From Phycisphaerales bacterium (GTDB lineage: Bacteria; Planctomycetota; Phycisphaerae; UBA1845), in the NCBI GenBank assembly GCA_020353195.1, contig CP070691.1, forward strand, positions 3,215,894-3,264,223: a stretch of DNA of 48,330 nt, written 5' to 3'. The stretch's first letter is position 1. Each line of letters opens with the position of its first letter. This document shows, piece by piece, positions 1 through 12,485 of the stretch. The translations under genes were made by a program, and so were the position numbers. The notes beneath the pieces were generated by a model. It had not been told where the DNA came from. It made no database searches and saw only the letters and a program-made list of their open reading frames with translations.

Positions 1-1
1 G

Positions 2-652
2 GAACTGCGCGACAAGCTGGTCGGGCAGCTTATGGGCCTGGCGAAGCAGTCGCCGGAGGGCGTCGCGCAGGCCGTCGAGCAGGCGCTGGCGATCGACATC
101 CAGGACGAGACGATGAAGCCCTTCGCGCTGCTCGCCTGTGGTGAGTTTTCAAACCTCGGCGGCGATGCGCAGCGCGGCGTCGAAGCCATCCAGCGCGCCG
201 TCGATCGCGGCGGCCAGGACCACTGGTATTACAAATCGCTCGGCTGGGCGCTGGCCGGCGCCGGCCGAACGGACGAGGCCAAGGCCGCGTTCACCAAGTC
301 CCTGGAGGGCTTCGAGTCGTGGTCGCCCGAACCGCCGGCGAACGCCGACATCGATCGGTGGACCGCCGCGTACTTCCTGGACCTGGTCACGCAGGAGCGG
401 TACACGCAGCGCTGGCAAAAAGATGAGAAGTTCGCCTGTTTCGTCTGGTTCTACGTCGGCCAGCGGGCCGAGATCGACGGCCGCGTCGATGATGCCATCG
501 CCGCCTACGAGAACGCGGTCGAACTCGGCCAACTGCCGAGCGCGCACCACACGGCCAACTTCGCGGCATACCGCCTGCTCGTGCTGACCGGAGCCTTACG
601 CCCCGGTGATCAAGCGGCGAGTGAGGAGTTCAGCGAACCGCTGGAGAAGTAA
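2..652 (+). CDS. TPR-like repeat protein, 5' end outside window
   Basis: The reading frame is open from the first bases, so the gene almost certainly begins upstream; the first ATG inside the window (32) lies in the middle of helical sequence. About 216 residues are visible. They are alpha-helical with tetratricopeptide-like segments: a Trp-Tyr-Tyr-x-x-x-Leu-Gly-x-Ala helix pair near residues 75-100 and a second unit around GRVDDAIAAYENAVELG near the C-terminus. Such repeats usually serve as protein-protein scaffolds; no enzyme motif is visible. It ends with TAA and is followed by a repeat-rich intergenic region. A specific role cannot be given from this fragment. Confidence 0.6.
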   Translation, partial: ELRDKLVGQLMGLAKQSPEGVAQAVEQALAIDIQDETMKPFALLACGEFSNLGGDAQRGVEAIQRAVDRGGQDHWYYKSLGWALAGAGRTDEAKAAFTKSLEGFESWSPEPPANADIDRWTAAYFLDLVTQERYTQRWQKDEKFACFVWFYVGQRAEIDGRVDDAIAAYENAVELGQLPSAHHTANFAAYRLLVLTGALRPGDQAASEEFSEPLEK

Positions 653-659
653 CCGGTCG

Positions 660-915
660 GGTACGGCCCCGACGCGCATGACCGAACAGAACCCGGAGCG
701 TAAGCGACGGGCGTGACCGAAACGGAACCCGGATGAACCGAACCCGGAGCGTGAGCGACGGGCGCGACCGAAACAGAGCCCGAAGCGCGAGCTTCGGGTC
801 ATAAAGGAACCACGACGCGTGTGAGACAATACGAGCCCCGAGCGTGAGCGAGCGGACAGTCGGGTCGTGAATCGCCCGACACCCGAACGCAAGCTTCGGG
901 ACACAAAGGAACCAC
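660..915. repeat. Intergenic repeat cluster R1 (REP-like palindromes)
   Basis: The stretch is made of short repeated units rather than a gene. It holds several copies of an 'accCGGAGCGTgAGCGACGGGc' type unit. A palindromic unit CCCGAAGC-GCGA-GCTTCGGG (779-798) is followed by a 'cataaaggaaccacgacg' tail. A longer unit starting 'gagccccgagcgtgagcgag' runs from about 833 and ends in a second, degenerate palindrome (882-900). The same units recur in the next three intergenic regions. The frames that stay open across them give low-complexity Arg/Ser-rich peptides and are not genes. Confidence 0.75.
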
Positions 916-980
916 GACGCTTCTGACCCGCATGGTGGGCCGTGCCCACCGCAGATAGCGAAAACAAAGCGGCCGGTGAG
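916..980 (+). repeat. 65-bp upstream element, copy 1
   Basis: This element runs from 'gacgcttctgacccgc' to 'gcggccggtgag'. It contains a perfect hairpin GGTGGGC-CGT-GCCCACC (934-950) and ends with GGCCGGTGAG (971-980), which pairs perfectly with CTCACCGGCC at 1001-1010. Ungapped 65-bp copies lie before each of the next two secreted-protein genes (3067-3131, 6028-6092). The position suggests a regulatory or recombination role, but that is inference. Confidence 0.7.
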
Positions 981-997
981 CCGCAGTGACGAAACCA

Positions 998-1108
998 GCA
1001 CTCACCGGCCAGGCCTCGCCCGGGCGGTGAGTCTGCGCGCCCGAGCCAAGGGCCCGTTCATTCTACCGCAGACCGGAGTTCAACACACGTAAGGAGGTAT
1101 GAATCATG
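998..1108 (+). promoter_or_regulatory. 111-bp conserved leader with RBS, copy 1
   Basis: This block ends at the ATG at 1106 and matches 6111-6221 at 106 of 111 positions without gaps. It includes an inverted repeat (ACTCACCG ... CGGTGAGT) and a strong Shine-Dalgarno AAGGAGG (1091-1097) 8 nt before the ATG. Carrying the same leader to the start codon of two unrelated secreted proteins suggests shared expression control or a duplicated cassette end. Confidence 0.65.
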
Positions 1109-1171
1109 TCGGGACACGAGGGCACACGTCGCAAGAGTTTCAGACAGCCGTTCAGGCAGAAGGAGGTCAGT

Positions 1172-2782
1172 ATGCGAGTCTTCACGTTGACAATCAGTCT
1201 TGCGCTATCAGTAGTACTCACGCTGCCGGGGAGCCTATTGGCTCAAACCTTCTCTGAAGAGTGGGTCGCACGGTATGACGGCCCAGGGAATCTAACTGAT
1301 TCCGCAGCCGCCATGGCCGTCGATGCCTCAGGTAATGTGTATGTGACCGGCACCAGCGACGGCGGCGGCACGTATGGTGACTATGCCACCGTCAAGTACG
1401 ACTCATCGGGCACCGCGCTCTGGGTGGCAAGGTACAATGGCCCGCGAAGTGACCAGGACAAGGCAAACGCCATAGCTGTAGATGCCTCAGGTGATGTCTA
1501 TGTGACCGGCGTCAGTGGCACCGGCATCTACGGTGACTATGCCACCGTGAAGTATGATTCGTCCGGCAACGAACTCTGGGTTGCGAGGTATAACGGCCTG
1601 GGAAACGGCCAGGATAACGCACGTGCCATAGCTCTGGATGCCTCAGGCAATGTCTATGTGACTGGCTGGACTAACATCAGCGTAAGTGACTTTGACTATG
1701 CCACCATCAAGTATGACGCATCCGGCAATGAGCTCTGGGTAGCCCGGTATGATGACCCGGCACATGACTATGATTGGGCATACGCTTTGGCCGTAGATGC
1801 GTCGGGTAATGTCTATGTCACCGGCCGGAGTCTTGGCTACGGCACTGTCGATGATTGTGTCACCATCAAATATGACTCGGACGGTACTGAGATCTGGGTC
1901 GCCAGGTATGATGGCCCGGCGAATTCGAACGATGCACCAAGTGCCATGACCGTCGATGCCTCGGGTAATGTCTATGTGACCGGCTACACCTGGAGCATCG
2001 CCACGAACTTGGATTATGTCACTGTGAAGTATGATTCGGCCGGCACTGAGCTCTGGGCAGCCATCTACGACGGCCCGGAAAGTCACTATGATGAGCCGCA
2101 GGCCATCGCTGTGGATGCTTCAGGCAATGTCTATGTGACCGGCTACAGTTACAGCAGCACGTTGCACGACTATGCCACTGTAAAATATGATTCATCCGGC
2201 ACTGAGCTCTGGGCAGCAACGTACAATGGCCCGGCTGATGACACTGACTGGGCAGATGCCATAGCCGTGGACGCTTCAGGGAATGTCTATGTGACCGGCC
2301 GGAGTGTTGGGAGTGGCACCGCCGACGACTACGCTACTGTACAGTACGACTCATCCGGCAATGAGCTCTGGGTGGGCAGGTTTGATGGGCCGGCACATGG
2401 CACTGATCAAGCATCGGCTGTGGCTCTGGATGCCTCAGGGAATGTCTATGTGACTGGAGGCAGTTTCGGCGACGGCACCGACCTGGACTATGCCACCATA
2501 AAGTACGTTCAAGACCCTGCCGCAGCCATAGAAGCACTGATCGCAGCGGTAATATCTTTGAACCTGCAACCGGGCATTGAGACCAGTCTGATTTCGCTGC
2601 TGAATGAAGCACAGCGGGCGTTGGATGATCCGAACGCCACCAATGACATCGCGGCCATCAACGCCCTGGAGGCCTTCATCAGCGTCGTCGAAGCGCTGAG
2701 CGGTGTCTTCATTCCGGTCGACGACGCGAACGCCCTGATCGCCGCCGCCCAGCAGATCATCGACCTGCTGAACGCAACGTGA
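1172..2782 (+). CDS. Secreted SBBP beta-propeller protein with C-terminal FIMAH-like domain
   Basis: I chose ATG 1172 because AGGAGG (1161-1166) lies 5 nt before it and a normal signal peptide follows directly (MRVFTLTISLALSVV..., cleavage near SLLAQ). An in-frame ATG at 1106 also has a good RBS and would add 22 residues. The 536-residue product has eight tandem ~53-residue repeats with core VDASGNVYVTG...DYATVKYDSSG.ELWVARY, the SBBP/beta-propeller type (roughly residues 30-445). An 86-residue helical tail (about 451-536) resembles the FIMAH domain. The tail matches the C-terminus of the gene ending at 8945, though the rest of the two proteins is unrelated. It is likely exported and cell-surface or extracellular; the ligand is unknown. 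Confidence 0.85.
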   Translation: MRVFTLTISLALSVVLTLPGSLLAQTFSEEWVARYDGPGNLTDSAAAMAVDASGNVYVTGTSDGGGTYGDYATVKYDSSGTALWVARYNGPRSDQDKANAIAVDASGDVYVTGVSGTGIYGDYATVKYDSSGNELWVARYNGLGNGQDNARAIALDASGNVYVTGWTNISVSDFDYATIKYDASGNELWVARYDDPAHDYDWAYALAVDASGNVYVTGRSLGYGTVDDCVTIKYDSDGTEIWVARYDGPANSNDAPSAMTVDASGNVYVTGYTWSIATNLDYVTVKYDSAGTELWAAIYDGPESHYDEPQAIAVDASGNVYVTGYSYSSTLHDYATVKYDSSGTELWAATYNGPADDTDWADAIAVDASGNVYVTGRSVGSGTADDYATVQYDSSGNELWVGRFDGPAHGTDQASAVALDASGNVYVTGGSFGDGTDLDYATIKYVQDPAAAIEALIAAVISLNLQPGIETSLISLLNEAQRALDDPNATNDIAAINALEAFISVVEALSGVFIPVDDANALIAAAQQIIDLLNAT

Positions 2783-2884
2783 TCCATCTTCGTGGCGGTG
2801 TGGGCCGGCGCTGCTAAGCCGGCCCACACCGGCCGCGAGTGAATAGCAAGCGCCCGTGACGGCGGCGCGAGCCCGACAGAGCCC
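2711..2884 (+). repeat. 174-bp shared 3' block, copy 1
   Basis: This runs from inside the FIMAH-like coding region (attccggtcgacgacg...) through the stop codon and terminator hairpin to the first palindromic repeat. It aligns without gaps to 8874-9047, offset exactly 6163, with about 7 differences (~96% identity by my reading). The upstream halves of the two FIMAH regions are clearly more diverged. Confidence 0.75.
2797..2830 (+). terminator. Hairpin after the SBBP gene
   Basis: There is a perfect 13-bp stem (GGTGTGGGCCGGC, 2797-2809, with 2818-2830) and an 8-nt loop, 15 nt after the stop codon. No T-tract follows, so it is either a non-canonical terminator or an mRNA 3'-end stabiliser. The copy at 8960-8993 keeps full pairing through a compensatory C-G to T-A change. 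Confidence 0.6.
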
Positions 2885-3066
2885 GAAGCGCGAGCTTCGG
2901 GACACAAAGGAACCACGACGGGCGCGAACCAATACGAGCCGCGAGCGTGAGCGAGCGGACAGTCGGGTCGTGAATCGCCCGACACCCGACCGCAAGCTGC
3001 GGGACATGAGAGAAACACGACATGCGTGATTGAACAGAACCCGGAGCGTAAGCGACGGGCACGATC
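2882..3066. repeat. Intergenic repeat cluster R2
   Basis: The cluster begins with the perfect palindrome CCCGAAGCGCGAGCTTCGGG (2882-2901) and its 'gacacaaaggaaccacgacg' tail. The 'gagccgcgagcgtgagcgag' unit follows (about 2937 on), then a 'cccggagcgtaagcgacggg' unit next to the 65-bp element. Order and orientation match clusters R1 and R3. Confidence 0.7.
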
Positions 3067-3131
3067 GACGCTTCTGACACGCACGGTGGGCCGTGCCCAC
3101 CGCGGACAACGAAAACAACGCGGCCGGTGAG
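3067..3131 (+). repeat. 65-bp upstream element, copy 2
   Basis: This is the same length as copies 1 and 3 with about 6 differences from copy 1. It keeps the GGTGGGC-CGT-GCCCACC hairpin and the terminal GGCCGGTGAG. The downstream partner CTCACGGCC lacks one base relative to the perfect 10-bp pairing of the other copies. The 111-bp leader does not follow; the start codon is only 70 nt downstream. Confidence 0.65.
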
Positions 3132-3200
3132 CCCACCTGCCAAGGAACAAACTCACGGCCCAGGGCCCTTCGCGGCCGCTCAGGAAAAAAGGAGCATACC

Positions 3201-5729
3201 ATGTCTCGCACGCAATCTGTTCGAACATTGGTCACCTGCCTCGCCGGCTCGCTCATCGCGGTGCTCGCCCTCCCGGTCCCCGCGATCGCCGACGCGCCGA
3301 CGCTGTTGATCTCACTGGGCATCCGGGAGACCAACCAGGTGGGGGACATCGGCGATTTCATGCCGTCCCAGGCCGGCGCGATCGAGTGGTTCGATCTGGA
3401 CAACCAATCGTTGGCCTTGGACGGGACGTGGCAGCTCTTCAGCTTCGACCTGGGCAGTGTCCCGATCACGCCTTTCAATGGCAATGGTGCAATCGATGCG
3501 GATCGGGGCGTCATCGAGCACATTCGTTTCAAGAGCACCGGTTTCGGCGGGCCGTTCGTGGTGTGGATCGACGAAGTCCGCGACCTGTACGATCCCACCG
3601 GCATTTACCCGCCCGTGGATCTGCTGATCAGCAGCTTCGACGATGACGGCACGGGCAGCCCGTTCCCGGACGACGCCGAGGTCATGTTTCAGGAACCGAC
3701 CTACTCCGGGAGTACCGACCAGTATATCGCCCCGGGCGCCACATCCGGAATCGACAACACCGTGGGGTACGATAATACCCATTCGGTCAAGGTCCAATGG
3801 GCCTTCGTGGACGACGATCCCATCTGTTGGCTGCGCCTGACCACCTGGATGGCCCCCGCGCAGCCCTGCCCGCTGATCGCCGAACCGAACGGACCGGCTG
3901 CAGTATACTACAGCAGCATTATCAGTTTCCGGCTCAAGGGCATCGTGGACTGCAACAACAACAGCCTTCCCGACGACCAGGATATTGCCGGCGGCACCAG
4001 CGACGACTGCAACGCCAACGGCGTACCCGACGAGTGCGAGGCCATCATCCTGTACGTGGACGACAGCGCGACGGGCCTGAACGACGGCACGAGTTGGACC
4101 GACGCCTACGTAGACCTCCAGGACGCATTGGCCGAGGCCGTTGCCAACTGCGCGGTATCCGATATCTGGGTCGCCGCGGGAACCTACAAGCCCGACGGCG
4201 GGACCGGCAACCGCCATCTCAGCTTCGAGATGGTGGACGGCGTGGCCCTCTATGGCGGGTTCGCCGGCGCCGAGACCGACCTCAGCCAGCGCCCGTTCGA
4301 TCCCGATCCGTACACCATCGACCCGGCCGTCGACTCCGTCCTCAGCGGCGACATCGGAGTCTCCGGCGACACATCTGATAACACTTACAGCGTGGTGCGG
4401 GCTTTTGCCATCTCCTCCAACGGGATCCTCGACGGCTTTACGGTCACTGCGGGGAACTCCAACAACTACGGCGGCGGGATGTACATCGATGTAGCCAGCC
4501 CGACAGTGGCCAACTGCACGTTCTGGGACAACGATGCTTACGTAGGCGGCGGGATGTACATCTTTGACGGCACGCCGACGGTGGCCAACTGCACGTTCTG
4601 GGAGAACCTCGCGACTTACAGTGGCGGCGGGATGTACACCGCGTTCGGTGGCAGCCCTTTGGTGACCAACTGCACCTTTGCCTGGAACTCCGCTGCGACT
4701 CCTGATCCTGAGGCTAGCGAAGGCGGCGGGGGTATGCACCTCGGCGGCGGCAGCTCGCTGGTGGCCAACTGCACGTTCTACGGTAACTTTTCTGGAACTC
4801 ATGGGGGCGGGATGTACACCGCTTACGCGGCTCCGACGGTGGCCAACTGCACGTTCAGCTATAACCGGGCGGGTCCGTCTGGCGATGGCTACGGCGGCGG
4901 GATGTACACCGCTTACGCAGGCCCGACGGTGGCCAACTGCATTTTCTGGTGGAACTTCGCCTATCCTGATACTGATCTCTGGGACGAGACTGGCACGCTG
5001 GTGGTCACCTACAGCAATGTCCCCGGTGGGTACGCTGGCGAAGGCAACATCGACCTCGATCCGATGCTTGCAGACGCGTCCTCCGGGGATCTGCGCCTGC
5101 TCCCCGGCTCGCCGTGCATCGACGCCGGCAGCAACCTGGCGCTGCCCGCCGATGTCGCCGACGTCGACGGTGACGGGGATACGTCCGAGCCAATCCCCTT
5201 CGATCCCGACGGGAACCCGCGCAGGCTCGATGATCCGGATACACCCGACACCGGCTACGGGGTATCCCCGATCGTGGACATGGGCGCCTACGAGTTGCCC
5301 GGTGATTGCAACGGCAACGGCGTGCCGGACCTTCAAGATATCCAGGGCGGCACCAGTAACGACTGCAACTTCAACCACATCCCCGACGAGTGCGAGCCGG
5401 ACGAGGACTGCAACAGCAACGGCACGCTGGATATCTGCGACATCGGCGCCGGTACGAGCGACGACTGCGATGAGGACTGGGTCCCGGACGAGTGTGAGCC
5501 GGACTTCGACGGCGACGGCCTCATCGACGGCTGCGATGACGACATCGACGCTGACGGCGTGTTCAACGACGAGGACGCGTGCGACTTCACGCCACCCGGC
5601 GCCCCGATCGTGACGGACCCGCAAGACCCGTTGTACGGAACGCTGCGCAGCGACGCCGACGGCGACTGCGACGTCGACCTGGCCGACTATGCCCTCATGC
5701 AACAGGAGTTCACCGGCCCCGGCCAATAG
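3201..5729 (+). CDS. Secreted right-handed beta-helix protein with thrombospondin-3/dockerin-like tail
   Basis: The start at 3201 is set by AAAAAAGGAG upstream and a signal peptide (MSRTQSVRTLVTCLAGSLIA..., cleavage near AIADA); the frame is open further upstream but without a signal sequence. The 842-residue product has an N-terminal all-beta region (~35-250), a Cys/Asp/Asn linker (DCNNNSLPDDQDIAGG), and a beta-helix from ~284 to ~690. The helix carries at least six turns with GGGMY and PTVANCTF motifs, as in Pmp-like/right-handed beta-helix families. Next come two or three GTSxDCxxxxxPDECE units, a calcium-binding type DxDGDGL stretch, and a dockerin-like end DADGDCDVDLADYALMQ. This architecture is typical of Phycisphaerae. 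Unlike its two neighbours it has no FIMAH-like tail. Its ligand or substrate is unknown. Confidence 0.85.
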   Translation: MSRTQSVRTLVTCLAGSLIAVLALPVPAIADAPTLLISLGIRETNQVGDIGDFMPSQAGAIEWFDLDNQSLALDGTWQLFSFDLGSVPITPFNGNGAIDADRGVIEHIRFKSTGFGGPFVVWIDEVRDLYDPTGIYPPVDLLISSFDDDGTGSPFPDDAEVMFQEPTYSGSTDQYIAPGATSGIDNTVGYDNTHSVKVQWAFVDDDPICWLRLTTWMAPAQPCPLIAEPNGPAAVYYSSIISFRLKGIVDCNNNSLPDDQDIAGGTSDDCNANGVPDECEAIILYVDDSATGLNDGTSWTDAYVDLQDALAEAVANCAVSDIWVAAGTYKPDGGTGNRHLSFEMVDGVALYGGFAGAETDLSQRPFDPDPYTIDPAVDSVLSGDIGVSGDTSDNTYSVVRAFAISSNGILDGFTVTAGNSNNYGGGMYIDVASPTVANCTFWDNDAYVGGGMYIFDGTPTVANCTFWENLATYSGGGMYTAFGGSPLVTNCTFAWNSAATPDPEASEGGGGMHLGGGSSLVANCTFYGNFSGTHGGGMYTAYAAPTVANCTFSYNRAGPSGDGYGGGMYTAYAGPTVANCIFWWNFAYPDTDLWDETGTLVVTYSNVPGGYAGEGNIDLDPMLADASSGDLRLLPGSPCIDAGSNLALPADVADVDGDGDTSEPIPFDPDGNPRRLDDPDTPDTGYGVSPIVDMGAYELPGDCNGNGVPDLQDIQGGTSNDCNFNHIPDECEPDEDCNSNGTLDICDIGAGTSDDCDEDWVPDECEPDFDGDGLIDGCDDDIDADGVFNDEDACDFTPPGAPIVTDPQDPLYGTLRSDADGDCDVDLADYALMQQEFTGPGQ

Positions 5730-5759
5730 CGCCGCCCGCGGTCCCTGACCCGCAACTCC

Positions 5760-5790
5760 GGCGGCGGGCACCAGCGGCTCGTCCGCCGCC
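5760..5790 (+). terminator. Possible hairpin after the beta-helix gene
   Basis: GGCGGCGG (5760-5767) pairs with CCGCCGCC (5783-5790) across a 15-nt loop, 30 nt after the stop codon. There is no T-tract and the surroundings are very GC-rich, so this is weakly supported. Confidence 0.3.
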
Positions 5791-5841
5791 CCGGAGGCCA
5801 TCGAGTTGCCGAGCAGCTGACAGACAGAGCCCGAAACCGAG

Positions 5842-6027
5842 CCCGAAGCGCGAGCTTCGGGACACAAAGGAGCCACGACGGGTATGAACCAACACGAGCC
5901 GCGAGCGTGAGCGAGCGGACACGAGGCTCGTGAAACGCCCGACACGCGAGCCGCAAGCTCCGGAACATGAGAGAACCACGACATGCGTGATTGAACAGGA
6001 CCCGGAGCGTGAGCGACGGGCGGGATC
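5842..6027. repeat. Intergenic repeat cluster R3
   Basis: It opens with the perfect palindrome CCCGAAGCGCGAGCTTCGGG (5842-5861) and the 'gacacaaaggagccacgacg' tail. The 'gagccgcgagcgtgagcgag' unit (about 5897 on) and a 'cccggagcgtgagcgacggg' unit (6001-6020) follow. Same order as clusters R1 and R2. Confidence 0.7.
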
Positions 6028-6092
6028 GACGCCTCTGACCCGCACGGTGGGCGGTGCCCACCGCGGAAAACGAAAACAAAGCGGCCGGTGAG
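6028..6092 (+). repeat. 65-bp upstream element, copy 3
   Basis: Here the hairpin loop is GGT instead of CGT while the GGTGGGC/GCCCACC stem is unchanged. The terminal GGCCGGTGAG (6083-6092) pairs perfectly with CTCACCGGCC downstream (6113-6122), as in copy 1. Confidence 0.7.
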
Positions 6093-6110
6093 CTCACACG
6101 GCTAAGCAGA

Positions 6111-6221
6111 GCACTCACCGGCCAGGCCTCGCCCGGGCGGTGAGTCTGCGCGCCCGAGCCAAGGGCGCGTTCATTCTACCGCAGACCGGACGTCAACACA
6201 CGTAAGGAGGCACGAATCATG
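6111..6221 (+). promoter_or_regulatory. 111-bp conserved leader with RBS, copy 2
   Basis: Ungapped match to 998-1108 with five substitutions, two of them next to the Shine-Dalgarno sequence. AAGGAGG (6204-6210) sits 8 nt before the ATG at 6219. Conservation stops at the start codon, and the encoded signal peptides are unrelated. Confidence 0.65.
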
Positions 6222-8945
6222 TTTTCAGGCAACCGAACAATGCGAAACTTGGGCGGGACGCATCGGTGCGTCGCCACCCTGGCCCTTTTATGGCTGCTGC
6301 TTGGAGTCCCAACAGCGTCCGGCCAGGATCCGCCACCGTTGGGTGATCTCATTCTCCCGGTTCCGGAGGATCCCGATGTACTCGAGGAACCTCACCAGCC
6401 GGGCACAATCGAGGGCACCGGGACCGAATTCGCCGTCACCGACAGCGAGTACCTGAATGTCACGCTGCAAAGCACCGAGCCGGTGGAGTTGCGACTTGAA
6501 TCCGTGCCGGAGATGATCGTCATCCGCATTCAGGCAGCGGAAGGGGCCGCCGCAACCCAGATCACGCTCGATGGCCTTGCACCCTCGACGACCTACTACA
6601 TGTATCAGGACGATTACCACAATCTCACAACCCTGCTCACGGACGACGGCGGAGCCTGCACCTATGCGCAGGACCTGGTCGAGCCGCACGTTGTCTTCAT
6701 CCAGCCGCGGGCCAGCACAAAGTTTATCCCCACTGACACGACTATCGGCACATGGGACCCCTATGACCGGGTCTACACGCTGAACGCCAATGTATCTGAA
6801 ACCATACAGATCGACGAAGGCAACCTGACCTTCGACGGTAACGGTAAGACCATAACCGGCTCGGGACCATACTCGGGTAGCGGAGTTTACCTTAACGGAA
6901 AGACAGGCGTGACGATCACAAACGTCACTGTTGCCAATTTTACCTATGGTCTGGCCCTCCGCAACTGCAGCAACAACACTCTGACCGCAAACACCGCCTC
7001 TGACAACATCTTCGGCATCGACATCGACTTCTCACAGGCCATTACGCTGACCGGAAACACCGTCTCTGACAACTCAATTGGAATCTGCCTTTACGCTTCC
7101 ACCGGCAACACGCTGACCGCAAACACAGCGACCAACAACTCAACCACTGGCATCCTGCTCTCTGGTTCCAGCAACCACGTGCTGACGGGAAACAGTATGT
7201 CCGGGAATGGGCGCTACAACTTTGACTTTCAGGGTGAGGCTGATGCGCATTACGCCCATGACATCAACACGAGCAATACGGTTGACGGAAAGCCTCTCTA
7301 TTACGTGGTGGGCGATGTGGGTGGCGTCTACGACGCCTCCACTTATGCCGGTGTCTTTTACGCGATCAGTTGCGATGGCATCACCATTAAGGACCTGACA
7401 CTAACTGGCAACGGCGCAGGCGTCAGGCTGTGGAATACGCACAATTCGACGATAGAGAACGTGACGGCGTCGAACAACCGGTCTGGCATCGGGCTCCACA
7501 AATCCGACAACAATACGCTGATTGCAAACACCGTGTCTAACAACGAGCATGGAATCACGCTCAGCTTGTCCGATGGCAACGTGCTGACGGGAAACATCGC
7601 CTCTGATAGCACCACTGCCGCGACCAACTACGGTGGAATCCACCTCAGCAATTCGCATTGGAACACGCTGACCGGAAACACGGCCTTAGACAACCCAACT
7701 GGGTTCTGCTGCCGGGGTGCAAATAACAGTCTGATCGGAAACACCGCCTCGAACAACGCGACTGGGTTCTATTGCGTGGGAACTTCCAACGTTCTGACCG
7801 GAAACACAGCGACCAACAACTCGGGCGCTGGCATCTGGCTGCAGAGTTGCAGCGCCTACGTGCTGACGGGAAACAGTATGTCCGGGAATGGGCGCTATAA
7901 CTTTTACATTCAGGGTGAGGCTGATGCGCATTACGCCCATGACATCGACACGACCAATACGGTTGACGGAAAGCCTGTCTATTACCTGGTGAACGATGTG
8001 GGTGGCGTCTATGACAGCTCCACTAATGCCGGTGTCCTTTATGCCATCAGTTGCGATGGTATTACCATTAAGGACCTGACACTGTCTGGCAACCGCGCAG
8101 GCGTCAGGCTCTGGAATACGCACAATTCGACGATCGAGAACGTGACGGCGTCGAATAACACGATTGGAATCTGGGTCTCTTCTTCCACCGGCAACGTGCT
8201 GACCGGGAACGCTACCTCTTATAACGGCATTGGTATTGGCCTCGGTGCTTCGGACGCCAACACGCTGGCCGGGAACAGCGCCTCCAACAACAGCCTGGCC
8301 ATCATGCTCTATTCTTCCAGTAGCGGCAACACCCTGACGGGTAACACAGCGGACTCAAACGAGGGTGTGGGCCTCTACCTGTCTGAGGCGGCCGCCAACA
8401 CACTCAACGGGAATACCAGCTCGAATAACGAGCTGGGGATGCACATGCGGCTTTGCAGTGATAATCAGACATGGAACAACAACTTCATTAACAATGCTAC
8501 GCAGGCGCTTGTGACCGGCGGCAGCGGAAACGTCTTCAACCTCCCTTCACCGATCGGTGGAAATTACTGGAGCGACTGGACCGGCCCGGACAGCGACGGC
8601 GATGGGATTGTGGACGTTCCCTACGCGTTTACCGGCGGACAGGACAACCTTCCCTGGGTGGTCCAGGATGGCTGGATGCCGCAGACGATGATCGAACAGA
8701 TCATCAGCGACGTACTCGCGCTGAATCTGCAGAACGGGATTGAGAACAGCCTGGATTCGAAGCTGGATGCGGCGCAGCAGGCGTTGGATGACGTGAACAA
8801 CAGCAACAACGTCGCGGCCATCAACGCCCTCGGGGCGTTCATCAACGCCGTGCAGGCCCAGAGCGGCGTGCATATTCCGGTCGACGACGCGAACGCCCTG
8901 ATCGCCGCCGCCCAGCAGATCATCGACGTGCTGAACGCAACGTGA
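6219..8945 (+). CDS. Secreted NosD-like beta-helix protein with C-terminal FIMAH-like domain
   Basis: This 908-residue exported protein starts at 6219 after AAGGAGG; the hydrophobic signal segment (VATLALLWLLLGVP) ends near TASGQ. A ~170-residue beta-rich N-terminal region precedes a long parallel beta-helix (~190-780) of NosD/CASH-type turns (NTLTGNTxSxNxxGIxL). Two large near-identical modules contain TVDGKPxYY and GVYD motifs. The helix closes with the NosD-type GGNYWSDWTGPDSDGDGI signature, then an 85-residue FIMAH-like tail (824-908). Such helices often bind or modify carbohydrates, or act as structural adhesins. No nos genes are nearby, so a role in nitrous oxide reductase maturation is not supported. 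A surface-exposed adhesive or structural role is inferred. Confidence 0.85.
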   Translation: MFSGNRTMRNLGGTHRCVATLALLWLLLGVPTASGQDPPPLGDLILPVPEDPDVLEEPHQPGTIEGTGTEFAVTDSEYLNVTLQSTEPVELRLESVPEMIVIRIQAAEGAAATQITLDGLAPSTTYYMYQDDYHNLTTLLTDDGGACTYAQDLVEPHVVFIQPRASTKFIPTDTTIGTWDPYDRVYTLNANVSETIQIDEGNLTFDGNGKTITGSGPYSGSGVYLNGKTGVTITNVTVANFTYGLALRNCSNNTLTANTASDNIFGIDIDFSQAITLTGNTVSDNSIGICLYASTGNTLTANTATNNSTTGILLSGSSNHVLTGNSMSGNGRYNFDFQGEADAHYAHDINTSNTVDGKPLYYVVGDVGGVYDASTYAGVFYAISCDGITIKDLTLTGNGAGVRLWNTHNSTIENVTASNNRSGIGLHKSDNNTLIANTVSNNEHGITLSLSDGNVLTGNIASDSTTAATNYGGIHLSNSHWNTLTGNTALDNPTGFCCRGANNSLIGNTASNNATGFYCVGTSNVLTGNTATNNSGAGIWLQSCSAYVLTGNSMSGNGRYNFYIQGEADAHYAHDIDTTNTVDGKPVYYLVNDVGGVYDSSTNAGVLYAISCDGITIKDLTLSGNRAGVRLWNTHNSTIENVTASNNTIGIWVSSSTGNVLTGNATSYNGIGIGLGASDANTLAGNSASNNSLAIMLYSSSSGNTLTGNTADSNEGVGLYLSEAAANTLNGNTSSNNELGMHMRLCSDNQTWNNNFINNATQALVTGGSGNVFNLPSPIGGNYWSDWTGPDSDGDGIVDVPYAFTGGQDNLPWVVQDGWMPQTMIEQIISDVLALNLQNGIENSLDSKLDAAQQALDDVNNSNNVAAINALGAFINAVQAQSGVHIPVDDANALIAAAQQIIDVLNAT
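7179..7478 (+). repeat. 300-bp internal duplication, copy 1
   Basis: It encodes about 100 residues containing GNSMSGNGRYNF, TVDGKPLYY and NVTASNN. It matches 7860-8159 without gaps, offset 681 bp (227 codons), mostly with scattered point differences. This fits a recent in-frame duplication inside the beta-helix. Confidence 0.8.
7860..8159 (+). repeat. 300-bp internal duplication, copy 2
   Basis: Second copy of the beta-helix module at 7179-7478, in frame and without gaps. The strong DNA identity, silent sites included, contrasts with the diverged shorter helix turns around it. Confidence 0.8.
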
Positions 8946-9047
8946 TCCATCTTCGTGGCGGTGTGGGCTGGCGCTGCTGAGCCAGCCCACACCGGCCGCG
9001 AGTGAATAGCGAGTGCCCGTGACGGCGGCGCGAGCCCAACAGAGCCC
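8874..9047 (+). repeat. 174-bp shared 3' block, copy 2
   Basis: Ungapped counterpart of 2711-2884, covering the last ~24 codons of the FIMAH-like domain, the stop, the hairpin and the start of the palindromic repeat cluster. Confidence 0.75.
8960..8993 (+). terminator. Hairpin after the NosD-like gene
   Basis: A perfect 13-bp stem (GGTGTGGGCTGGC with GCCAGCCCACACC) and 8-nt loop lie 15 nt after the stop. Relative to 2797-2830 it has paired changes (C to T and G to A at the same stem position), so the structure, not just the sequence, is kept. Confidence 0.6.
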
Positions 9048-9205
9048 GAACCAGAGCCCGAACCAGAGCCCGAAGCGCAAGCTTCGGGACATAAAGGAAC
9101 CACGACGGGTGTGAGACAATCCGAGCCCCGAGCGCGAGCGAGGGGACATTCGGGTCGTGAAACGCCCGACACCCGACCGCAAGCTTCGGGTCACATAGGA
9201 ACCGC
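9048..9205. repeat. Intergenic repeat cluster R4
   Basis: It contains two short 'gagcccgaacca' units, the palindrome CCCGAAGCGCAAGCTTCGGG (9069-9088), the 'gagccccgagcgcgagcgag' unit (about 9122 on) and a degenerate palindrome (9172-9188). The 65-bp element and leader are absent, and the next gene is a photolyase, not a secreted protein. The rest of the gap, to 9393, shows nothing recognisable. Confidence 0.65.
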
Positions 9206-9393
9206 GACGTGTCACGCCCCAAACATGACGGGCGCCAGACAAACGACTCCCGTATTTCAATCCACCACTACCCGCCGACTGAGCCCCCTGGTAAGCTGAC
9301 CGGCTGGCGGAATGTGTGCCCGAAAGCTCGTTCTTCAGCACCGCCGCGCCGAGTTGGAAGCGCACACTCGATCAGGCAGGGAGTGACTGAGGT

Positions 9394-10824
9394 ATGCGGG
9401 CGTTGATGTGGTTTCGATCCGATCTGCGAGTCGCGGACAACCCCGCGCTGCACCATGCCCGCAAGGCCGCAGACAACGGCGTTATCGCCGTCTTCGCCGT
9501 CTGCACCAAGCAGTGGGCCGAGCACGACTGGGGCAGCATGAAGGTGGATTTCGTGCTTCGCAACGTCCGCGCCCTGTCCGAAGCACTCGCAAGACTGAAT
9601 ATCCCGCTCGTGCTCATCCGAGCTGATCGATTCGCCCAGGTTCCCGGCAGGCTTCTTACGCTCGCAAAGCGCCACGCGTGTGAGGCCTTGTATCTCAACA
9701 GCGAGTACGAGGTCAACGAGTTGCAGCGCGATCGTGAGGTGACGGCCCTGTTCCATGAACACGGCCGGTCCGTCCACACCTTCACCGATCAGGTCATCCT
9801 GGACGCGGACCGCTTGCGTACGGGAGCCGGACGCTGGTACACGGTCTTCACGCCGTTCAAGCGCAAATGGTGCGAGATCGTCAAAGAAGAAGGCTTGCCG
9901 CCGGTCGGGCCGAGACCGCGCCGCCAGGGGCGAATCGGCATCGAGCCCGACGCCGTGCCGGCCACGGTCCGAGTATTCGCAGGCCATCAGCGGCCCGATT
10001 TGTGGCCGGCAGGCGAGCGGGCCGCACAGAAACGGCTCAACGCATTCGTCGCGAGGCGAATCGGCGACTACCACAAGGCCCGCGACCATCCGGCCATTGA
10101 CGGCACCAGCGCGCTCTCGCCGTACCTGGCGGTCGGCGTGCTGTCCGCCAGGCAGTGTCTGCAGGCCGCCCTCGACGCCAACCACGGCCGACTCGACTCG
10201 GGCCGGAAGGGCGTCACGACATGGATCAGCGAGCTGATCTGGCGCGAGTTCTATCGATACATCCTGGTCGGCTTTCCGCGCGTGTGCATGGGCCGACCGT
10301 TCAAGACGGAAACCGACAACTTGCCATGGCGTTACGACGAAGGCCAGTTCGCCGCCTGGTGTGCAGGCCGAACCGGGTTCCCCATCGTGGACGCCGGTAT
10401 GCGACAGCTGGCCCAGACCGGTTGGATGCACAACCGGCTTCGGATGATTGTGGCGATGTTCCTCACGAAGGACCTGTTCATCGATTGGCGCTGGGGCGAA
10501 CGCCACTTCATGCAGCACCTGGTGGACGGCGATCTCGCCAGCAACAACGGCGGTTGGCAGTGGTCGGCCTCGACCGGCACGGACGCGGCTCCTTACTTCC
10601 GCGTCTTCAATCCGCTGAACCAGAGCTGGCGCTACGACCCCGACGGCAGCTTCATCCGCCGCTTCGTACCCGAATTGGCAGGACTGACCGCCAACCGGGT
10701 ACACTGCCCCGACGGGCAGTCACTGGCGGCGCTCGATTATCCCCGCCCCATCGTCGACCGCCGCAACACGCGCCAGTTCGTGATGCGGGCGTTCCGCCGG
10801 TTGCCCGGAAGGACGTCGTCGTGA
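9394..10824 (+). CDS. phrB: Deoxyribodipyrimidine photolyase (cryptochrome/photolyase family)
   Basis: This cytoplasmic flavoenzyme uses blue light to split UV-induced pyrimidine dimers. The 476-residue length fits a class I CPD photolyase. The N-terminal Rossmann antenna domain opens with LMWFRSDLRVADNPAL (residues 4-19). The FAD-binding C-terminal half shows GTSALSPYLAVGVLS (~238), WISELIWREFYRYI (~277), GFPIVDAGMRQLAQTGWMHN (~327) and DGDLASNNGGWQW (~378), including the Trp/Asn residues that contact FAD and DNA. The start is ATG 9394 with a modest GGCAGGGAG upstream. It stands alone between repeat cluster R4 and the convergent trmB. Confidence 0.93.
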   Translation: MRALMWFRSDLRVADNPALHHARKAADNGVIAVFAVCTKQWAEHDWGSMKVDFVLRNVRALSEALARLNIPLVLIRADRFAQVPGRLLTLAKRHACEALYLNSEYEVNELQRDREVTALFHEHGRSVHTFTDQVILDADRLRTGAGRWYTVFTPFKRKWCEIVKEEGLPPVGPRPRRQGRIGIEPDAVPATVRVFAGHQRPDLWPAGERAAQKRLNAFVARRIGDYHKARDHPAIDGTSALSPYLAVGVLSARQCLQAALDANHGRLDSGRKGVTTWISELIWREFYRYILVGFPRVCMGRPFKTETDNLPWRYDEGQFAAWCAGRTGFPIVDAGMRQLAQTGWMHNRLRMIVAMFLTKDLFIDWRWGERHFMQHLVDGDLASNNGGWQWSASTGTDAAPYFRVFNPLNQSWRYDPDGSFIRRFVPELAGLTANRVHCPDGQSLAALDYPRPIVDRRNTRQFVMRAFRRLPGRTSS

Positions 10825-10989
10825 CAAACCACGCGAGCACGTAAGCACGGCGCGACTTGTGCCGATGGGGTCTGCTCGTGTTGAAGGATGCCGGCCGGCA
10901 GCACGCCCGTGACCCGATGATGCCGGTACCCGATGCGCTCGTCACGCTCCGCTTGCGCGCGGGGAACGGGGAACTCCGCGGTAGCGGCC

Positions 10990-11601
10990 CTAGCCCTTCT
11001 TGCGGAAGGCGAGGCGGTAGAAGTGCCTGCCCTCGCGGAGGTACTTGATCTCGTAATTGGTCTGGGTCTGGTTGTCCACGATGCCGAAGGCCTCGTCTTC
11101 GTAATCGATCGGCTCCAGCCTCTCCTGCCCGGCCATCACCTCGGTGATCCAGGCGAAGTAGTCGGCGTGATCGGTTTGAATGGCCCATCGCCCACCGGGT
11201 TGCAGCGCCACCGTCGCCGCCGCCACGAAATCCGGCTGGAACAGCCGCCGCTTGTGGTGACGTTTCTTCGGCCAGGGGTCGGGGTGGTAGGTATGCAGGG
11301 CGGCCAGACAGTCAGGGACCAGGTGATGCAGCACGAAGTTTCGGGCGTCGGTGCGCATGATGCGGACGTTCGTCAGCCCCCACCGGGCCATTCGGTCGGC
11401 GGCATAACGGTAGTATTTGTTCGCCCACTCGATACCGAGAAGGCGAAGCTGGGAATACTCGCGCGCCCGGCGCAACAGGAACCCGCCCTTGCCGCAGCCG
11501 ATCTCGAGTTCGACCGGGCCCGGGCTGCCAAAGTAACTCACCGGGTCGATTCGCACGTCCGCGTCGGGCGGTGAAACCGTAATGCCGTCGATTGTGGGCA
11601 T
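10990..11601 (-). CDS. trmB: tRNA (guanine-N7)-methyltransferase
   Basis: TrmB methylates guanine 46 of tRNA using S-adenosylmethionine. I start it at 11601 (MPTIDGITVS, 203 residues); the frame is open upstream but that stretch looks non-conserved. The SAM-binding motif is ELEIGCGKGGFL (31-42), followed by GIEWANKYY. The family-specific PDPWPKKRHHKRR (107-119) and the TNYEIKYLREG signature near the C-terminus are present. The length is typical of bacterial TrmB. It is divergent from yggS and convergent with the photolyase gene. Confidence 0.92.
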   Translation of the reverse strand: MPTIDGITVSPPDADVRIDPVSYFGSPGPVELEIGCGKGGFLLRRAREYSQLRLLGIEWANKYYRYAADRMARWGLTNVRIMRTDARNFVLHHLVPDCLAALHTYHPDPWPKKRHHKRRLFQPDFVAAATVALQPGGRWAIQTDHADYFAWITEVMAGQERLEPIDYEDEAFGIVDNQTQTNYEIKYLREGRHFYRLAFRKKG

Positions 11602-11639
11602 GGCCCAATGGTGCAGCCGCCGGGACGTTCCGTCAACTA

Positions 11640-11668
11640 CTGGACGCGATGGCGAGAAACCGTATGAT
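11640..11668 (+). promoter_or_regulatory. Candidate promoter of yggS
   Basis: TATGAT at 11663-11668 is a good -10 element. The -35 region is weak (CTGGAC or TGGACG at 11640-11646, spacer 16-17). It lies in the divergent gap between trmB and yggS, about 47 nt before the chosen yggS start. Confidence 0.35.
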
Positions 11669-11714
11669 CGTCCCGGCTGTATGGACTGCGGACTTTTCAC
11701 CGGTTGGAAGAGCT

Positions 11715-12485
11715 ATGCCCGGTGCGGCACGGCGACAACTCAGCGAGAACCTCAGGCAGGTCCGGGAGAGGATTCGGGCTGCGTGCGAGCGGGTCGGGCG
11801 ATCGCCGGACGAGGTGACCCTTCTGGCGGTTACGAAATCCGTAGGCGTCGACGTTATTCGCCACTTGATCGACCTGCATCAAACGGAGATTGCCGAGAGC
11901 CGCGTCCAGGTGCTGGTCAAACGCGCCGCCATGATCCGCGAGTTGTGCACCCGCCAGCGAACGCCTCCGCATCCCGGCCCCGCCACCGAGCCGCGGTGGC
12001 ATATGGTCGGACATTTGCAGCGGAACAAGATCAAGGCCGTCTTACCCTGGGTGGAGATAATCCATTCGGTGGACAGTCTGCGCCTGGCGGAGGACCTGGA
12101 GGTGCACGCGGCCAAGGCCTCGCGCCGCATCCCCGTTCTCCTGCAGATCAACGTCAGCGATGAGAAGTCCAAGTTCGGAGTCGCTGTCGGGGCGGCGCTC
12201 CACCTGGCGGAACAGATCGTAACCCTGCCGCACGTGTCGCTGGTGGGCCTGATGACCATGGCCCCGTTGACCGACAATTCACAGTGGATCCGGAACTGCT
12301 TCGCCCGTCTTCGGGAGCTTCTCGAGGAGATACGGCATGAACGCTTCGGCACACCCGAGATGCGCCATCTGTCGATGGGTATGAGCCGCGATTACGAGAT
12401 CGCCGTCGAAGAAGGGGCCACCTTCGTGCGCATCGGCTCCGCGCTGTTTGAGGGCATCGAGCAGTTCGCGGAAACGTCCCCGTAG
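11715..12485 (+). CDS. yggS: YggS family PLP homeostasis protein
   Basis: YggS/PLPBP proteins are single-domain TIM barrels that bind pyridoxal 5'-phosphate and buffer the free cofactor; they are not known to catalyse a reaction. I chose ATG 11715 (256 residues) because it aligns with the usual family N-terminus and has GGAAGAG just upstream; an open frame extends to 11592. The PLP-binding Lys is in LLAVTK (Lys41). RWHMVGHLQRNK (~97), LLQINVSDEKSKFG and the C-terminal LSMGMSRDYEIAVEEGATFVR are classic. The usual GEN motif reads AES here (about 60-62). Confidence 0.9.
   Translation: MPGAARRQLSENLRQVRERIRAACERVGRSPDEVTLLAVTKSVGVDVIRHLIDLHQTEIAESRVQVLVKRAAMIRELCTRQRTPPHPGPATEPRWHMVGHLQRNKIKAVLPWVEIIHSVDSLRLAEDLEVHAAKASRRIPVLLQINVSDEKSKFGVAVGAALHLAEQIVTLPHVSLVGLMTMAPLTDNSQWIRNCFARLRELLEEIRHERFGTPEMRHLSMGMSRDYEIAVEEGATFVRIGSALFEGIEQFAETSP

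Follow-up and report, generated by a model that had tools for sequence, protein, structure and literature searches.

The 48,330-nt stretch of a Phycisphaerales genome analysed here ("the window"; contig CP070691.1, positions 3,215,894 to 3,264,223) contains three copies of a repeat, each placed before a gene for a predicted exported protein. The final nucleotides of this repeat, GGCCGGTGAG, open a conserved RNA of about 108 nt, whose fold as a structured leader is supported by compensated base pairs beyond both shuffled and slid controls. Judged from sequence, it is likely that this RNA controls when the predicted exported proteins are made, and we assign a probability of roughly 55% to the reading that, acting in cis, it controls translation initiation of the exported gene behind it. 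A sequence-only reading of the window, which took the repeat to be 65 bp long, had proposed either a shared regulatory RNA or a recombination or insertion mark. The first proposal stands with regard to structure, which covariation supports, and to position before predicted exported genes; its boundaries had to be given up, the conserved RNA starting where the 65 bp end.

Fold and relatives of the leader RNA

A first covariance model, built from six copies of the window's own genome (G000), found strong relatives outside its family, in G079 (E 7e-28), twice in G064, in G093 (E 1.5e-9) and in G052 (E 9.5e-8). The part shared across these relatives measures about 108 nt and begins at GGCCGGTGAG, leaving outside it the GGTGGG hairpin that the 65 bp contain. 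Wider searches employed a core model, R2, and then a final model, R3, made from 31 sequences. In total, the RNA was counted at 83 places in 37 genomes from 10 planctomycete families, the last number resting on family numbers assigned in the genome searches and the class and phylum names of these genomes being inferred. Two matches were dropped before this count, L244 for being identical to another copy of G000, and L246 for marking the same place as the L245 match; the fragment L041 (G052) and matches with E above 1e-5, among them those in G642, G802 and G287, are outside the 83 as well. L041 (G052:C332:1-95) is a contig-end copy; by eye, it lies behind an exported-protein frame that looks truncated, and the same contig seems to hold a transposase-like frame as well. 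In a named sequence collection, a short DNA pattern returned 47 loci, of which R3 confirmed 13, all labelled as planctomycete (Phycisphaerae, Phycisphaerales, Sedimentisphaerales or Planctomycetota/Planctomycetes); the other 34 gave no R3 match, and these served as the sole outside test.

The RNA opens with P1, a 10-bp hairpin, which is followed by a two-part stem, P2/P3, while the loop of P3 pairs with a downstream strand to form a pseudoknot. P2 (GGCnUC with GAUGnC or similar) encloses P3 (CCGGGCG with CGCCCGG), and the P3 loop, GGUUUGC or GGUCUGC, finds its partner downstream in GCAAACC or GCAGACC. Over the 30 pairs and 83 distinct rows of the alignment (A6), 85.7% of cells are paired. Changes on both sides were observed in 24 of the 30 pairs, against 15.3 ± 1.9 in shuffled alignments, and compensated cells numbered 178, against 61.3 ± 7.3; in neither measure did any of 500 shuffles reach as high. 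Since shuffles ignore relatedness, slid control structures were needed too, and these paired only 31-41% of cells. In the pseudoknot, 92.9% of cells are paired and six of the seven pairs are compensated, with UA changed to CG 24 times at one of them. As this helix is absent from the model of the alignment, its pairing and its compensation are independent of alignment fitting. P2 is the weakest helix (67.4% paired), in part because its bulge shifts. Ahead of the 3' pseudoknot strand, an unpaired AU..UA is found in 72 of 83 copies. Upstream of P1, bases are hardly conserved except for an A stretch: at least six A within the 9 nt before P1 occur in 47/83 copies compared with 25/1660 random places.

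Rfam 15 gave no relevant match up to E 1 for window positions 1-12000 and for the loci of 14 relatives; each of the two scans returned one chance-level match, neither of them on the RNA. No description of the RNA was found among the matches listed in the open-access literature searched. The Rhodopirellula-1 motif is likewise listed for planctomycetes: a table mentions it without an Rfam number as a possible cis-regulatory RNA of Planctomycetes and Proteobacteria (PMC2864571). Orphan cis-regulatory motifs and riboswitches, as portrayed in parts of three papers (PMC2864571, PMC8632094, PMC11109978), likewise combine a compact covarying pseudoknot with conserved unpaired bases before a ribosome-binding site. 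Unlike those, the RNA described here has targets that share predicted export and not a metabolic pathway, and neither a ligand nor an expression platform is recognised. By its sequence it thus presents itself as a putative cis-acting leader RNA without relevant Rfam match and with an unusual target set, and as a new one unless it proves to be the Rhodopirellula-1 motif.

Genes on either side of the RNA

Export-type signals were detected in 66 of 76 downstream genes and, among the remaining genes in these loci, in 47 of 159 (Fisher p 3e-17). The export test is a home-made heuristic, applied as one rule to both sets, and the controls are same-locus neighbours including kinases, so that the contrast may be inflated. 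With another way of picking starts, 71 of 83 scored rows look exported, two of these rows being duplicates. The enrichment before secreted-protein genes that the sequence-only reading had expected is therefore present, in place of a random scatter. Pfam, run on 40 of about 80 downstream proteins, assigned unrelated folds (SBBP, beta-helix, NosD, FG-GAP, PD40, Kelch, RCC1, LamG, subtilase, esterase, GH99 and others) and left 14 of the 40 without a family. When each of 80 leaders is compared with its nearest leader, the latter stands, in 51 cases, before a protein showing no blastp similarity; thus the leader looks as if it was kept as a module of its own.

The start codon follows the RNA in the same orientation within 60 nt in 58 of 83 copies, and two spacings recur, 29 nt in 21 and 14 nt in 12 copies (33/83 together), which by and large represent two sequence subtypes. 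The pseudoknot sits just before the ribosome-binding site, and in other genomes the RNA often lies between a kinase gene and the exported gene. Upstream, an open reading frame (ORF) of the same direction is listed in 66 cases, and in 48 of them its stop is 20-120 nt away from the RNA. Among these 66, we scanned the 26 long and near ones with Pfam: 20 carry a protein kinase domain together with TPR, WD40, PD40 or FGE-sulfatase-like parts, and several of the six without it are cut by the fetched stretch. The kinase catalytic-loop motif itself was seen in 29 of 68 upstream ORFs, many of them cut. Of 20 longer stretches, 12 show a sigma-like ORF ahead of a kinase ORF; ten of these sigma-like ORFs were scanned, nine of which match TIGR02999 over cut-off, while the one at L265 fits TIGR02984 below cut-off. 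A survey of 14 genomes, picked for bearing the RNA, showed that 24 of 70 TIGR02999 sigma genes have the RNA 2.7-5.7 kb downstream on the same strand, that two pairs within 7.5 kb are arranged otherwise, and that 24 of 48 RNAs have an upstream TIGR02999 gene.

Pairs of a sigma gene and a kinase gene are known as such. In the parts of PMC8999054 available to us, the extracytoplasmic function (ECF) groups ECF59, ECF61, ECF62 and ECF217 are described with the sigma gene near a Ser/Thr-kinase gene and with planctomycete representatives, and planctomycete-containing groups of this kind are predicted to be activated by phosphorylation. The same parts likewise join sigma factor and kinase, and mention neither an RNA nor an exported protein behind the kinase (PMC8999054).

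Another sequence lies near the end of the upstream protein gene. AAAGGAGG, often AAAGGAGGTGRTGCC, which we take to be a near-perfect complement of the 16S rRNA 3' end, is present within 120 nt before P1 in 19 copies out of 83, compared with 1 of 485 control windows, and lies mostly 64-74 nt before P1 in examples such as L185, L188, L190, L191, L192, L194, L209, L182 and L198. By eye, it often encodes, in frame, a KEVVP with which the upstream protein ends, and elsewhere lies past the stop codon; since it occurs both ways, selection may act on the nucleotides.

Proposed mode of action and rival explanations

How could such a leader work? The RNA would be part of the sigma-kinase operon transcript or have its own promoter, and a ligand or protein might recognise the pseudoknot region, namely the unpaired AU..UA strand and the P1 loop. 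The folding state of the RNA would then gate access of the 30S subunit to the Shine-Dalgarno site just behind, and by such gating the last gene could be tuned separately from sigma factor and kinase. We tentatively suggest, with less confidence than for cis-acting control as such, that a signal-responsive leader RNA forms the third part, an RNA part, of a circuit of ECF sigma factor, Ser/Thr kinase and exported protein, in which the RNA gates the translation of any exported protein placed behind it. If this holds true, surface proteins with unrelated folds would share one RNA as their control module throughout the phylum. Its position between sigma-kinase pairs and exported proteins offers a testable output element, as well as a covariance-model handle for finding target genes. 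If the RNA regulates at all, what the targets of this RNA regulator have in common would be export rather than a metabolic pathway.

Several results weigh against control of translation start in such a circuit. The chosen start is more than 90 nt away or missing in 22 of 83 copies. In 16 of these, an ATG at 14-32 nt opens just a short frame of 1-33 codons; the gene chosen in these copies begins at a distance of 106-295 nt, if one was found at all. Furthermore, nested folds of 57 leaders do not hide the Shine-Dalgarno site in a consistent manner (its unpaired probability averages 0.54), and thus no occlusion switch is visible in such folds; an expression platform that uses the pseudoknot may still be compatible with this result. 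As a run of five T, expected of an intrinsic terminator, was present in 3 of 58 leaders, neither form of a recognisable riboswitch expression platform, terminator or hidden Shine-Dalgarno site, emerged. With starts picked in the second way, 12 of 83 rows failed the export test: L180, L201 and L216 are prepilin-like, L168 and L228 have apparently mis-set starts, the signals of L218 and L225 look real by eye, and the rest are without evident target. The distribution is patchy as well. The class search met the RNA in 16 of 397 genomes with R2 at E 0.1 and in 15 of 397 with R3 at E 0.001, and the phylum search in 7 of 392 at E 0.01, the window genome included; in family f23 it was met in 28 of 89 genomes (E 0.01). 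In the window genome's own family of 51, no genome but G000 rose above chance level, four others giving E 0.11-0.78, and the other genome of its genus is without the RNA. Searches over 40 genomes used strict filters and scored few candidates per genome, and the absences are soft in this respect.

The sigma-kinase context is incomplete, too. No RNA lies within 7.5 kb behind 46 of the 70 TIGR02999 genes, some of which are near contig ends, and none of the four TIGR02999 genes of the window genome precedes one. In that genome, the kinase catalytic-loop motif is absent from both strands of seven stretches around the copies, and it was not found in 10.2 kb of the window scaffold around and upstream of the gene at 2..649. 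A 100-N assembly gap lies directly ahead of the window and the scaffold is gapped around the copies; despite these gaps, the missing context is a context failure. The copies with a short frame include L171, L172, L174, L179, L202, L210, L213, L218, L222, L226 and L235, and in L171 and L218 the frame shrinks to ATG-stop. A pairing of the Shine-Dalgarno site with the 5' strand of P2 was considered and rejected, as by eye it fits the GGCCTC subtype alone.

The main rival to cis-acting control of translation, which we rate as unlikely, is an element of processing or stability. A message of kinase and exported protein would be cut in the A-rich stretch and the folded RNA would shield the new 5' end; in this way, and with no ligand involved, the yield of exported protein would far exceed that of kinase. 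The A stretch before P1 (47/83 against 25/1660), the upstream stop 20-120 nt before the RNA (48/66) and the Shine-Dalgarno site that is not hidden fit this explanation. However, protection alone needs neither a conserved unpaired AU..UA (72/83) nor a recurrent spacing of 14 or 29 nt. The same spacing, along with the compensated pseudoknot pairs and the dispersal of most copies, led us to turn down the second proposal of the sequence-only reading, a DNA-level site, integron-like or as cassette mark, at which surface-protein genes are shuffled. Near-identical leaders before unrelated proteins and short arrays (such as G456 C237, G329 C88, G449 C214, G356 C592 and the window) would suit such a site, yet we consider it very improbable.

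Compensated substitutions in paired positions are equally unexpected if the conserved block were a promoter, that is, the DNA target of the neighbouring ECF sigma factor with incidental folding. While TIGR02999 sigma genes are indeed found upstream in many loci, the sequence upstream of P1 is barely conserved beyond the A stretch, and we give this explanation very little weight, slightly less than the recombination site. Least probable of all appears to us that leaders simply hitch-hike on recent gene duplications. Genes 1 and 3 of the window share both the leader and the C-terminal end, and several copies of G329 and G000 are close paralogues with similar proteins. However, with the RNA in 10 families and 51 of 80 nearest leaders before dissimilar proteins, hitch-hiking was tested and found insufficient to explain the whole set. 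Cis-acting control of translation start thus remains the reading that we prefer.

Copies, genes and repeats of the window genome

The RNA copies of the window and the genes around them are as follows, all on the forward strand.
2..649, +: end of upstream gene, TPR repeats (TPR_2, TPR_12; domain scan), cut by the window edge
934..950, +: hairpin of copy 1, GGTGGGCCGTGCCCACC, found only before own-genome copies and outside the conserved RNA
970..1076, +: conserved RNA copy 1 (101.3 bits, model R3)
971..1010, +: P1 hairpin of copy 1, 971-980 with 1001-1010 (alignment, covariation)
1012..1054, +: P2/P3 of copy 1; P2, 1012-1017 with 1048-1054, is imperfect and encloses P3 (weakest helix, 67.4% of cells paired)
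1020..1044, +: P3 of copy 1, 1020-1026 with 1038-1044 (alignment, covariation)
1030..1074, +: pseudoknot of copy 1, 1030-1036 (AGTCTGC, P3 loop) with 1068-1074 (GCAGACC) (covariation)
1106..2782, +: predicted exported protein 1, SBBP beta-propeller; start 29 nt past the RNA, in-frame alternative start at 1172
3085..3101, +: hairpin of copy 2 (repeat comparison)
3121..3202, +: RNA remnant, copy 2 (22.1 bits, E 0.0012)
3201..5729, +: predicted exported protein 2, right-handed beta-helix; signal peptide judged by eye
6046..6062, +: hairpin of copy 3 (repeat comparison)
6082..6189, +: conserved RNA copy 3 (106.4 bits; the pseudoknot strands are 6143-6149 and 6181-6187)
6219..8945, +: predicted exported protein 3, NosD/beta-helix; start 29 nt past the RNA

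In copy 1, the outermost pair of the pseudoknot (A-C) is unformed. Copy 2 is truncated: P1 is retained minus one base, P3 and the 3' half with the pseudoknot are gone, and because of this loss its gene is probably no longer under control of the RNA. By analogy with other loci, the gene at 2..649 is perhaps the end of a Ser/Thr-kinase protein; the domain scan saw TPR repeats only and no kinase domain in its product. Each of the three proteins opens with a predicted export-type signal, scored for genes 1 and 3 and judged by eye for gene 2, in agreement with the claim of secreted products. That these proteins are unrelated is correct for the bodies of genes 1 and 3 (SBBP propeller and NosD/beta-helix, respectively) but not for their C-terminal ends: at least the last 220 bp or so of coding sequence and the 3' flank are common to both (repeat family D4, 84% over 300 nt; 2559-2858 and 8722-9021). 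By sequence comparison, genes 1 and 3 represent an apparent domain exchange between common ends.

The repeat itself was recovered at the places claimed for it (self-comparison family D10: 915-982, 3066-3133 and 6027-6094), with the few substitutions described; relative to copy 1 the others are 91% and 90% identical, with about 6-7 changes in 68 nt. The GGTGGG/CCCACC stem is constant and its loop variable (GGTGGGCCGTGCCCACC, GGTGGGCGGTGCCCACC, GGTGGGACCTGCCCACC, GGTGGGCGATCCCCACC), as had been noticed. Pairing of the terminal GGCCGGTGAG with a downstream CTCACCGGCC was seen in copies 1 and 3, whereas copy 2 reads CTCACGGCC, one base short. The length of 65 bp proved too small. The repeat extends further, with 997-1109 matching 6110-6222 by 96% (D11) beyond its supposed end, the 158 nt upstream are also present four times (D2), and the 65 bp are merely the 5' edge of a larger element. 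Copy 3 as query against the 3.79-Mb genome returned itself and five strong places, which puts the repeat beyond chance, in addition to two 15-bp matches at chance level. Two of the five are copies 1 and 2 of the window; the others are located at 866483, at 959899 (minus strand, identical to copy 3) and at 3115310, and a divergent additional copy lies near 3001222. Since the GGTGGG hairpin is present within 200 nt upstream of 5/5 counted own-genome copies and of 0/78 copies in other genomes, we rejected it as the functional core.

The second copy of leader 3 (G000:C1:955000-963000; L244, L004) has an identical RNA, with gene start and upstream gene end nearly identical. It adjoins an assembly gap and reflects either a recent duplication or an assembly effect.

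Further repeats surround the leaders. A palindrome-rich local repeat (CCCGAAGCGCGAGCTTCGGG, CCCGGAGCGTGAGCGACGGG; D2, D9) occupies window positions 761-918, 2864-3021, 5824-5981 and 9051-9208; it precedes most leaders of the window genome, follows gene 3, and occurs three times at G000:C1:1055331-1055614, where the covariance model finds no RNA. The upstream palindrome GAGCCCGAAGCGCRAGCTTCGGG was accordingly rejected as a part of the RNA: it belongs to a local repeat with nine sites (one mismatch allowed), three of them without RNA beside an assembly gap. Within the family, plain blastn gave outside the own genome just short matches, either chance-like or resembling repetitive extragenic palindromes (REP). 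An inverted REP-like pair, GTAGGGTGGGCCGTGCCCACC ... GGTGGGCACGGCCCACCCTAC, is present in other genomes of the family (L021, L025, L027, L029, L031, L047), and its core resembles the hairpin of the 65 bp.

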